From Tribonema minus (Eukaryota > Sar > Xanthophyceae > Tribonematales > Tribonemataceae), in the NCBI GenBank assembly GCA_017506865.1, contig JAFCMP010000268.1, positions 682,001 to 746,000 of the forward strand: a stretch of DNA of 64,000 bases, in the 5' to 3' direction. The notes below the pieces were generated by a model that had not been told where the DNA came from, did not search any database, and saw nothing but the letters and a program-made list of their open reading frames with translations. Made by a program: the position numbers and the translations under genes. This document shows positions 1 through 62,018 of the stretch, one piece after another; the stretch's first letter is position 1, and each line of letters begins with the position of its first letter.

Positions 1-726
1 GGCGCCTGCTGACGCTGCACAAGTAGACGTTGCCGAGCACCTGTGGTCGCGCCGCGGTTAGGGTTAGGGTTAGAACAGTCAGGGTTAGGGTCAGGATTAG
101 GGTTAGGGTTCTTGCGCGCCAGGAACGACTCGCGCTGGCGCCTGCTGACGCTGCACAAGTAGACGTTGCCGAGCACCTGTGGTCGCGCCGCGGTTAGGGT
201 TAGGGTTAGAACAGTCAGGGTTAGGGTTAGGATTAGGGTTAGGGTTCTGGCGCGCCAGGAACGACTCGCGCTGGCGCCTGCTGACGCTGCAGAAGTAGAC
301 GTTGCCGAGCACCTGTGGTCGCGCCGCGGTTAGGGTTAGGGTTAGAACAGTCAGGGTTAGGGTTAGGATTAGGGTTAGGGTTCTGGCGCGCCAGGAACGA
401 CTCGCGCTGGCGCCTGCTGACGCTGCAGAAGTAGACGTTGCCGAGCACCTGTGGTCGCGCCGCGGTTAGGGTTAGGGTTAGAACAGTCAGGGTTAGGGTT
501 AGGATTAGGGTTAGGGTTCTGGCGCGCCAGGAACGACTCGCGCTGGCGCCTGCTGACGCTGCACAAGTAGACGTTGCCGAGCACCTGTGGTCGCGCCGCG
601 GTTAGGGTTAGGGTTAGAACAGTCAGGGTTCGGGTTAGGATTAGGGTTAGGGTTAGGGTTCTGCCGCGCCATGAACGACTCGCGCTGGCGCCTGCTGACG
701 CTGCAGAAGTAGACGTTGCCCAGCAC
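1..726 (-). repeat. 136-bp tandem array of the RBR C-terminal exon edge plus telomere-like spacer
   Basis: Six copies begin at 1, 137, 273, 409, 545 and 687. The period is 136 bp, and the fifth step is 142 bp because it carries one extra TTAGGG. On the minus strand each unit holds the 5' edge of RBR exon 18 (encoding GNVYFCSVSRRQRESF), then CCCTAA repeats, then CACAG just before the next copy. Each unit therefore runs from AG|GT to AG|GT and could be removed as a GT-AG intron. The period is not a multiple of 3, so successive copies fall in different frames. The array runs off the left edge. Confidence 0.95.
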
Positions 727-60700: not shown

Positions 60701-62018
60701 GTCATCGTGTTGCCCAGACTTTGCAGAACGTGTTGCCTCTCAGCAATCGTCTGGTTCTTGTGAGCAGCAGCAGCGTCAGGATCCGCCTGTACTGGGCACT
60801 GCAACCAGATGAAGCATTCTTGAAGCTCCTGTTTCTTGACAAGCTACCCAGTTACCCAGCTAACTTTCAATGTCATCTACCTGAACGCCTGTTCATCAAT
60901 CATGGCTGCCATGCAGGCTGCGCACTACTCCAACGTGGAGTCGCCGTTCGGGGGCAAGGGGGAGAGCGGCATGGGCGCCTACAGGGGCGCCTACAGCTTT
61001 GAAGGTATGCACCAAGAAGTACCGAGTAAAGGACCCCCTTACCGGCAAACACCCTCTGCACTGTCAACGACCCGCAGGGTGCAGCTTCATGCCATGGTAG
61101 TCCTCTGTGCAGTAAAGCACTCGGGGCGTCGTCTGCTTTCGCCAGCACACTGAAAGCGTGGAGCGGTGCTGTGCACTGACGCAAAGTCTCAAACGCACTT
61201 GCGCTGAAGTGGCTGATGCTGCTGCTGATGCAGGCACCATCATGATCACACTGCCGCACTGGTAGCATCTACGTCATCTCAGCCACTGCAGTCCTCGTGC
61301 GATCTTCAAATATTTTAAAGCAGTTTTTTTTTACGTACCAAATTAAGCCATTACGGCTATGGTGGAGCGTGCCAAAGGACCCGTGCCATGGCAAACAAAC
61401 CATCTTTCACAGAGCACACCTCTTCTTTTTGCCACGAGCGCATCGTGCCAGCTTCGTGCCCCCCCCCCTCACGGTTAATGACCCATGCGCCGTAAACGAC
61501 TTTCGGGTCGGCGTTTGCAAGGGCCCCTGACAGCCACGTACCGGGGGTATTTTACTGTGTACTTCATGGTGTGTATGCATGGTGTGTATGCGTGCTCCTG
61601 CAGTCGATCAGACGCCGCAATTCAGCTGCAAAAGCACGACCGACAACGAACAACAACTTGATGTAAAGCAGCGACTTGATGCAAAGCAACTAGCCGCCGG
61701 GCAGCACTCTCAGGCAACACAAAGCCAAGCTTTTGACCGCGCGTGACGCCTGCCCCCTGCCCCCGCCCCCCCCCCTTTTTCGCTGCTTGTCGCGCAGCCT
61801 TCACGCACAAGAAGACCGTCCTGAAGACGTACGCGTTCATGGACTTCATCATGCCCATGCGCTACGCCCCGTACTCCGACACGAAGCTTGCGCTGTTCAG
61901 GACGCTCCTGCTGGCAGACCTGACCTGGCTCAGCCTGCTCTTCAAGACGGCTGTCGCGGCTGCGGTGCTCACCATACTGAGCGCTTACATTGATGTCAAA
62001 ATCTCGCTGAAGCAGTAA
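51799..62018 (+). CDS. Class 3 (fatty) aldehyde dehydrogenase with C-terminal membrane anchor
   Basis: It oxidises long-chain aldehydes to acids with NAD(P). Exons are 51799-51974, 52444-52492, 53745-53912, 54474-54612, 55382-55504, 57151-57302, 57945-58052, 58994-59158, 60058-60180, 60917-61004 and 61798-62018. They sum to exactly 504 codons (503 residues). Motifs: [20 protein letters not shown] at the N-terminus, [28 protein letters not shown] (cofactor-binding Lys), [11 protein letters not shown] (dinucleotide loop), LELGGKCPVYV (catalytic Glu, built across the exon 5/6 junction), [12 protein letters not shown] (catalytic Cys), [11 protein letters not shown] and [14 protein letters not shown]. 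The C-terminus [20 protein letters not shown] and the following residues form a hydrophobic tail like human ALDH3A2, so it is likely anchored to ER or peroxisome membrane. The FINxxxxPLAxYxF segment is present as [13 protein letters not shown]. Introns hold many exon-edge copies. A LINE sits 199 bp upstream. Confidence 0.95.
53301..53744 (+). repeat. Exact 110-bp tandem array of the 5' edge of ALDH exon 3
   Basis: The gcag acceptor and following exon start (YTLSTxE-coding) occur at 53301, 53411, 53521 and 53631 and then at the real exon (gcag at 53741, exon from 53745). The period is exactly 110 bp. A partial older copy precedes them near 53190. Units 3-5 run AG|GT to AG|GT; units 1-2 have AG|GC. 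Copies are nearly identical, so this is the youngest array in the window. Confidence 0.95.
55235..55381 (+). repeat. Upstream copy of the 5' edge of ALDH exon 5
   Basis: gcagagacgacggcgctcag at about 55238 repeats the acceptor and start of exon 5 (gcagagacgacggcgctgct, exon from 55382). Only the first 20 or so bases remain clear. Flanking repeats of gccggctggggg occur at about 55056 and 55140. Confidence 0.7.
55620..56265 (+). repeat. Four decaying copies of the 3' edge of ALDH exon 5
   Basis: The exon end encoding [21 protein letters not shown] and its GTAAGG donor (real edge 55504) recurs near 55634, 55815, 56026 and 56196. Similarity falls with distance. Each spacer holds a GAAGTTGAGGG-like stretch. 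Confidence 0.9.
57415..57635 (+). repeat. Two copies of the 3' edge of ALDH exon 6
   Basis: gtcatggcggaccgcgaga plus the VPKLLEE-coding end and GTGAGA donor (real at 57261-57302) recur at 57423 and 57582, spacing 162 and 159 bp. The second copy keeps an intact donor. Confidence 0.95.

Follow-up and report, generated by a model that had tools for sequence, protein, structure and literature searches.

Isolated relatives of the pattern described here, in which introns carry partial copies of the ends of their own flanking exons, are already known. In rice, insertions of 10–1000 bp are reported to be often tandem or partly tandem local duplications (Vaughn and Bennetzen, 2014, via PMC7407515). 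These break-repair duplications resemble the clean units and spaced copies of the present study in being local and tandem or partly tandem, but here, in many genes, the copies are concentrated at the edges of exons and make introns longer. Repair-mediated duplications in primates are likewise local copies that sometimes include splice sites; in that study just 4 of the 824 donor sequences consisted of partial exon/intron sequence, an inverted exon copy occurred once, and copies lying less than 50 bp from their template had been removed (PMC2671141). In our material edge copies dominate and none is inverted (0/86 introns), and strand-invasion duplication of the primate kind is less like the pattern than rice-type insertions are. 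New introns have been attributed to tandem duplication in Drosophila (PMC2891723) and, with the duplication crossing an intron–exon boundary, in potato (PMC4974935). Tandem duplication is common to those cases and ours, but there a new intron results and here an existing intron grows. Intragenic duplications that include splice sites (cited in PMC2809761) also have the splice site within the copied unit, whereas our copies are partial, neutral-looking and on the intron side, and no new coding exon was seen among them. Introners are dispersed elements known mainly from fast-evolving lineages, green algae among them; some carry 3–9 bp target duplications or inverted ends, and some families have neither (PMC9860276). 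They too alter intron content genome-wide, whereas in the present case it is the local exon that is copied, and no 3–9 bp target duplications or inverted ends were seen.

Edge copies record one route by which a compact genome can come to bear long introns. A comparative study of relatives of Chlamydomonas describes the benefit of long introns as unknown and their driver as probably ancient (PMC8226300), and in three Chlamydomonadales the mean intron length is 516–934 bp (PMC11247165). The Haematococcus genome is reported to contain 47% repeats, the interspersed ones being mostly short and in tandem (PMC7617258), and the accessible portions of the Haematococcus genome literature hold no mention of exon-edge copies (PMC7617258, PMC10400597, PMC6330051). 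For the genome-wide case we found no precedent: among titles and abstract openings in the open-licence literature there was no description of genome-wide exon-edge copying.

The window analyzed in this study is a stretch of 64,000 nt (contig positions 682001–746000) from a 158 Mb assembly of 554 contigs. Gene models were predicted from sequence, with splice matrices and codon usage derived from the genome's own Pfam-supported exons. Coding sequence in this genome is GC-rich (GC3 0.85); in the splice models donors are of the GTGAG type and acceptors are CAG. By Pfam, the models in the window yield RBR (RB_A domain), SET/SMYD-like, PNP_UDP_1 (MTN) and Aldedh proteins. The PP2C gene was located by Pfam profile search, and no Pfam family matched the protein labelled ‘SAP’ at E 0.001. 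Over a length of 435 residues, the ALDH model can be aligned to PDB 3sza, a dimeric NADP-preferring aldehyde dehydrogenase that we take to be human ALDH3A1. Exon numbers differ slightly from those of an earlier note on this DNA because the RBR model used here has 17 exons.

Two sets of introns were counted. The window set consists of 33 introns (16 from RBR, 10 of 12 from ALDH, 4 of 11 from MTN and 3 from ‘SAP’); nine ALDH and MTN model introns lying 5′ of the trusted portions were excluded, and the PP2C and SMYD-like edges, visible in self-alignment, are outside the counted set. For the outside set, 60 loci were fetched for part of the consecutive Pfam exon matches to kinesin, PP2C and Aldedh, with kinase matches (L001, L002) and HSP70 matches left out of the count. 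The matches gave 117 ordered pairs, including a single one from the window; profile positions were compatible in 75, all of which received a splice model. Of these, 53 with good splice scores, agreeing frame and a length of at most 1900 bp were kept, and 22, including the one in the window, were removed before counting. The resulting 53 introns come from 34 loci (38 kinesin, 11 PP2C and 4 Aldedh) and make a combined set of 86 with those of the window. An edge copy is a copy holding at least 10 bp of exon end. The scope is one genome, and the outside set covers three protein families, mostly kinesins.

The earlier note had proposed that introns throughout the window carry partial copies of an adjacent exon end plus its splice site, at 18 or more edges, and that the process is genome-wide. 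Local same-strand repeats were present in 18 of the 33 window introns, as edge copies in 16 and as internal repeats only in 2. At least 10 bp of exon was copied at 10 donor and 8 acceptor edges of the RBR, ALDH, MTN and ‘SAP’ genes, to which the PP2C and SMYD-like edges are additional (Table 1), so that the proposed number is reached, although the evidence is weak for three of the 18, two of which match over no more than 19 and 23 bp while the third includes just 13 bp of exon. The match was at least 40 bp long in 14 of the 16 introns with edge copies, and the splice site was crossed in 14. When the window was aligned to itself, same-strand matches of 50 bp or longer within 3 kb numbered 66, a figure in which arrays are counted several times, so that the matches are not independent; there was no inverted match of that size. 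The same holds well beyond the window: 25 of the 53 outside introns have same-strand repeats, in 21 as edge copies and in 4 as internal repeats only, with 15 donor and 11 acceptor edges copied. Matches reach 40 bp or more in all 21 and cross the splice site in 20. When each of the 53 outside introns was block-shuffled once, none gave matches, compared with 24 real introns at identical settings. Both comparisons, self-alignment and shuffling, had been suggested in the earlier note and agree with it, and the spread to genes elsewhere in the genome is borne out.

Table 1. Exon-edge arrays located in the window (positions within the 64,000 nt; percentages are identities over the length given)
Feature	Positions	Strand	Arrangement and match
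RBR exon 5 (13073-13341), 3′ edge	12909..13149	-	unit 13037-13149 (77 bp exon + 36 bp intron), copy 12909-13021; 94.7%/113 bp
RBR exon 5, 5′ edge	13329..13597	-	unit 13329-13461, upstream copy 13463-13597; 75%; 13 bp exon, weak exon side
RBR exon 6 (11543-12034), 5′ edge array	11961..12596	-	upstream copies; nearest offset 116; 67-75% whole matches
RBR exon 7 (10976-11194), 3′ edge	10651..11049	-	two downstream copies, 76-78%
RBR exon 8 (10127-10342), 5′ edge	10302..10544	-	one upstream copy, 74%/89 bp
RBR exon 9 (9537-9605), 3′ edge	9286..9583	-	one downstream copy, 79%/150 bp
RBR exon 11 (7017-7176), 5′ edge	7126..7666	-	upstream copies; best 97%/69 bp
RBR exon 11, 3′ edge array	6358..7074	-	downstream copies; nearest offset ~119; 66-72%
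RBR exon 13 (4978-5183), 3′ edge	4488..5043	-	at least 3 downstream copies, 81-85% for three
RBR exon 14 (2871-3164), 3′ edge	2724..2931	-	unit 2864-2931, copy 2724-2791; 87%/68 bp
PP2C exon (modelled 23992-24347), 5′ edge	23628..24041	+	upstream copy, 70%/248 bp; outside counted set
PP2C exon, 3′ edge (24347)	24289..24562	+	unit 24289-24398, copy 24451-24562; 85%/112 bp; outside counted set
PP2C exon ending 25453, 3′ side	25433..25914	+	downstream copies, 79%/105 bp, 21 bp exon; outside counted set
PP2C last exon (modelled 27185-27376), 5′ edge	26708..27220	+	upstream copy, 78%/167 bp; outside counted set
‘SAP’ exon 30440-30703, 3′ edge array	29755..30531	-	at least 4 downstream copies, 76-86%
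MTN exon 39602-39835, 5′ edge	39815..40061	-	upstream copy, 80%/82 bp
MTN exon 39602-39835, 3′ edge	39259..39674	-	downstream copies, 84% and 89%
SMYD-like exon (44276-44886), 3′ edge	44832..45008	+	unit 44832-44918, copy 44923-45008; 88.5%/87 bp; outside counted set
ALDH exon 53745-53912, 5′ edge	53241..53795	+	upstream 110 bp tandem array, five units, 77-88%
ALDH exon 55382-55504, 3′ edge	55435..56209	+	downstream copies, 68-76% whole matches
ALDH exon 57151-57302, 3′ edge	57260..57710	+	downstream copies, 75% and 88%

Copies of a 5′ edge lie upstream and copies of a 3′ edge downstream, all on the same strand, as had been claimed. Inverted repeats do occur in 16 of the 86 introns, and in none of the 86 is there an inverted copy at an exon edge. 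Aligned units are mostly 50–150 bp, sometimes with additional sequence between copies, and copy identity is mostly about 70–98%; some arrays consist of clean tandem units, such as that at locus L022 and the 110 bp array of ALDH. With their direct orientation, local position and size of tens to hundreds of bp, the copies fit short tandem duplication by end joining. Decay with distance from the exon holds as a tendency, in that the nearest copy is also the best match in 16 of 23 multi-copy arrays (10/14 at donors and 6/9 at acceptors; 8.6 expected, P = 0.001), with clear exceptions such as L013, where a 100% identical stretch lies 487 bp away. A nearest copy that is the most similar fits repeated copying from the exon, displacing older copies outward.

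We consider it probable that short local tandem duplications across splice sites, followed by neutral decay, lengthen these introns. We infer that such duplications arise often within gene bodies. Those lying wholly within an exon would alter the protein and be lost by selection, and those crossing a donor or an acceptor would be tolerated, with the splice site on the intact exon staying in use. Duplication of a segment running from an exon to beyond its donor would give the order exon, donor, spacer, partial exon, donor, and acceptors would give the mirror image. The message would be unchanged because the whole exon keeps the first donor, provided that this donor is still used, and the partial second copy of the exon would lie within the intron and be removed by splicing. 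Splice-crossing duplications would in this way escape selection, which is apparently why the copies persist. Repeated events at one edge would shift older copies outward, each decaying neutrally. The earlier description of introns growing outward is thus correct as to the side on which copies lie, but a directional machinery is unnecessary; geometry and selection suffice, because the protein can survive a splice-crossing duplication unchanged only when the partial copy ends up in the intron. Several nearest copies are separated by spacers of 15–77 bp, which plain slippage does not explain. In some arrays the spacers are alike by eye and are therefore possibly decayed unit sequence; spacer homology was partly judged in this way. 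The idea that spacers are unrelated filler was given up: one comparison put the intronic parts near random (0.63 vs. 0.55), but several spacers look alike by eye and contain many indels, and the measure is too crude.

The lengthening itself is visible in the combined set. Introns with edge copies have a median length of 814 bp (n = 37), as against 517 bp for introns without repeats (n = 43; P = 4e-6), a contrast to be read with the caveat that long introns offer more room for copies; the six introns with internal repeats only belong to neither group. Recognizable same-strand repeats account for 16,967 of 63,925 intron bases (~27%) across the 86 introns. Of the two outcomes that the earlier note had offered, intron birth or intron lengthening, these lengths speak for the second.

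The earlier note had named a large excess of edge-anchored copies over shuffled introns as a point in its favor, and an excess over random placement was found. Arrays touch an exon edge in 44 of 62 cases (0.71). If the same units were placed at random within their introns, 15.7 would be expected to do so, and 24.0 if the weight of edges is doubled for the constraint on one side of each pair (P = 3e-5 and 8e-4 in the two sets). A placement model that uses the intron length before duplication predicts 11.1 to 30.8 at detection factors of 1 to 6 (P = 1.4e-4 at 6); the excess keeps P < 0.001 at correction factors of 2 to 6, though a bigger detection bias is possible. Of the 22 arrays that count as recent, with 87% identity or more over 45 bp or more, 19 lie at edges (0.86). 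We also simulated the process forward in time, allowing substitutions, indels and duplications and removing events that disrupt an exon. In the uniform version, which has no preference, the edge fraction was 0.38 and 0.41 in two single runs, compared with the observed 0.71, and over 20 further runs it averaged 0.39 with introns starting at 400 bp and 0.51 with introns starting at 250 bp (maximum 0.61). For recent arrays the means of the same 20 runs were 0.41 and 0.58, with a maximum of 0.81 (250 bp start), vs. the 0.86 observed. Since edge arrays exceed both random placement and the uniform simulation, duplication may favor exon sequence; on these statistical grounds a preference for edges or exons is likely, though short of proof.

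It is quite possible, and we put it forward tentatively, that exon edges are preferred substrates, with exon-including duplications several times commoner than intron-internal ones, so that each exon would serve as a repeated source from which introns receive copies of its ends. If this is true, the preference is a biased mutational route of intron lengthening and could contribute to the exceptional intron lengths of chlamydomonadalean algae. Simulated exon preference fits the data only roughly: the edge fraction is 0.57 (0.44–0.73) with a threefold preference, 0.50 in one run with a fourfold preference and 0.74 with a tenfold preference, but the last overproduces introns bearing repeats (71–77 of 86 vs. 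43 of 86 observed). The exon-side share of donor units is 0.75, compared with 0.56 in the uniform simulation (P = 0.03, n = 18), and acceptor units do not differ from that simulation (P = 0.55, n = 10, one long array excluded).

The alternative that survives best is that duplication is uniform along genes and that edges merely seem enriched, through conservation of the exon side and because introns were once shorter. Exon-derived copies do stay recognizable longer, one of their sides being constrained, and starting from 250 bp introns brings the simulated fractions, above all that of recent arrays, nearer to those observed. Repeat coverage of introns is, in addition, no lower away from the edge than close to it, standing at about 0.2–0.35 in most 50 bp bins; the edge excess therefore depends on the model of allowed placements. 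We nevertheless regard uniform duplication as rather unlikely. The observed 0.71 lies above all 22 uniform runs, 19 of the 22 recent arrays are at edges, and introns that start at 250 bp finish at a median of 354 bp, below the 649 bp of the 53 real introns (the other simulated median being 530 bp).

That the copies have a role of their own, as extra splice sites or pseudo-exons that selection maintains to serve as decoys, backups or alternative exons, is improbable. Many copies do retain a GT or an AG, but at close to the neutral expectation: exonic identity predicts a retained GT in 33.4 of 43 donor copies and a retained AG in 21.2 of 28 acceptor copies, and the observed numbers are 35 and 24. 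The exonic parts of copies differ from the exon by 12.2%. With the frame assigned from codon usage, mismatch rates at codon positions 1, 2 and 3 are 0.087 (108/1239), 0.100 (125/1250) and 0.178 (222/1246), and a third position about twice the other two is what free drift of the copy, combined with exon changes at synonymous sites only, should produce. The third-position excess had suggested coding constraint on the copies, an idea that was dropped since one neutral and one constrained side fits. Where the exon has T at the third position the copy differs at 50 of 79 sites, and where it has A at 21 of 56, which is consistent with copies that may retain an older, GC-rich state. Copy-specific changes in 21 multi-copy arrays number 53, 67 and 90 at the three positions; this mild third-position lean (P = 0.007) we attribute, short of proof, to base composition or mutation bias together with later changes in the exon. 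Indels per mismatch are fewer in exonic (0.059) than in intronic parts (0.265), which would favor functional copies; the 27 exonic indels inside matches are all of 1–2 bp, and longer ones could break a match. A frameshift is present in 18 of 76 copies and an in-frame stop in 3 of 76. Given this rate of frameshifts, the near-expected survival of GT and AG and the neutral codon-position pattern, the copies look, on sequence grounds, like neutral debris, neither alternative exons nor backup splice sites. Exon duplication for mutually exclusive splicing does not describe them either, as only exon ends are copied, with the frameshifts just given and with mismatches free of coding constraint. The source exon provides a built-in clock and control for the decay of its copies. 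For annotation there is a warning, in that introns contain exon-like pieces with intact-looking splice sites.

Mobile, introner-like elements inserting at splice sites with target duplication are a very improbable source. Telomere-like and TTGAAGTT-like words are common to introns, and spacers lie between several copies, which would favor such elements; however, what is repeated is the end of the local exon, edge repeats in the scan of the 53 introns are at least 26 bp rather than 3–9 bp, and the spacers show no enrichment of intron-shared words or hairpins. The telomere-like word TAACCCTA or its complement, one of a class of TTAGGG-like words, occurs in 18 of the 86 introns (0.5 occurrences expected), and short hairpins are likewise frequent in introns (45 vs. 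21 and 33 vs. 12.8 in shuffles). Duplication driven by hairpins or by telomere-like sequence was considered for this reason and rejected: the spacers between copies are enriched in neither, and no hairpin with a stem of 7 and a loop of 3–12 was found in 26 spacers.

Intron birth through tandem duplication of exon sequence carrying AGGT, the other outcome raised in the earlier note, has the Drosophila and potato cases as described sources of new introns, but is less probable still. It would leave a copy of the upstream exon abutting the acceptor or a copy of the downstream exon abutting the donor, and this arrangement was seen in none of the 86 introns. Most copied units, moreover, include intron sequence, and the intron therefore existed before the duplication. 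An assembly artefact, though tandem repeats misassemble easily, is scarcely credible for copies that are mostly diverged (about 70–98% identity), variably spaced and spread over many unrelated genes, and one 1.2 kb piece of the window, when searched, had no second copy in the assembly.

That short tandem duplication across splice sites is still active, as the earlier note had suggested, is plausible. A comparison of the paralogues L053 and L055 revealed no clear gained copy, and the large unaligned part of their intron shows no self-repeat. Elsewhere, some copies are 97–100% identical over 45–61 bp.

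Two words were strongly enriched among the 86 sampled introns, drawn from the window and from Pfam-bounded genes elsewhere in the same genome: the telomere-like TAACCCTA was present in 18 (0.5 expected), and TTGAAGTT/AACTTCAA in 19 as against an expectation of 1.6. Telomere-like repeats, here GGTTAG, are also seen within the units of the tandem array that lies directly past the modelled 3′ end of RBR. Units of a second array contain CAG runs followed by CAGTGAGT, which resembles a donor, and no gene model covers this array in the gene-finder run on the window.

Repeats and other features located in the window
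Feature	Window position	Description
Tandem array beside RBR	1-732	136 bp repeat unit in 5.3 copies that are 97% alike
MTHFR-like stretch, encoded by exons upstream of PP2C	16142-20856	Pfam E 0.00017, below Pfam's cut-off
Second array, with CAG runs	33140-34454	units ~190-210 bp, ~6 copies
Two adjacent long open frames	47487-51599	869 and 500 codons

The MTHFR-like exons were merged with PP2C into one model by the gene finder. Between the SMYD-like and ALDH genes, the first of the two open frames carries a reverse transcriptase domain (Pfam RVT_1), and the pair is probably a retroelement.

Elsewhere in the assembly, Pfam matches score identically or almost so across contigs C90/C179 and likewise across C144/C223/C278, which suggests that these are duplicated or haplotype contigs; if so, they could be used for dating new duplications.
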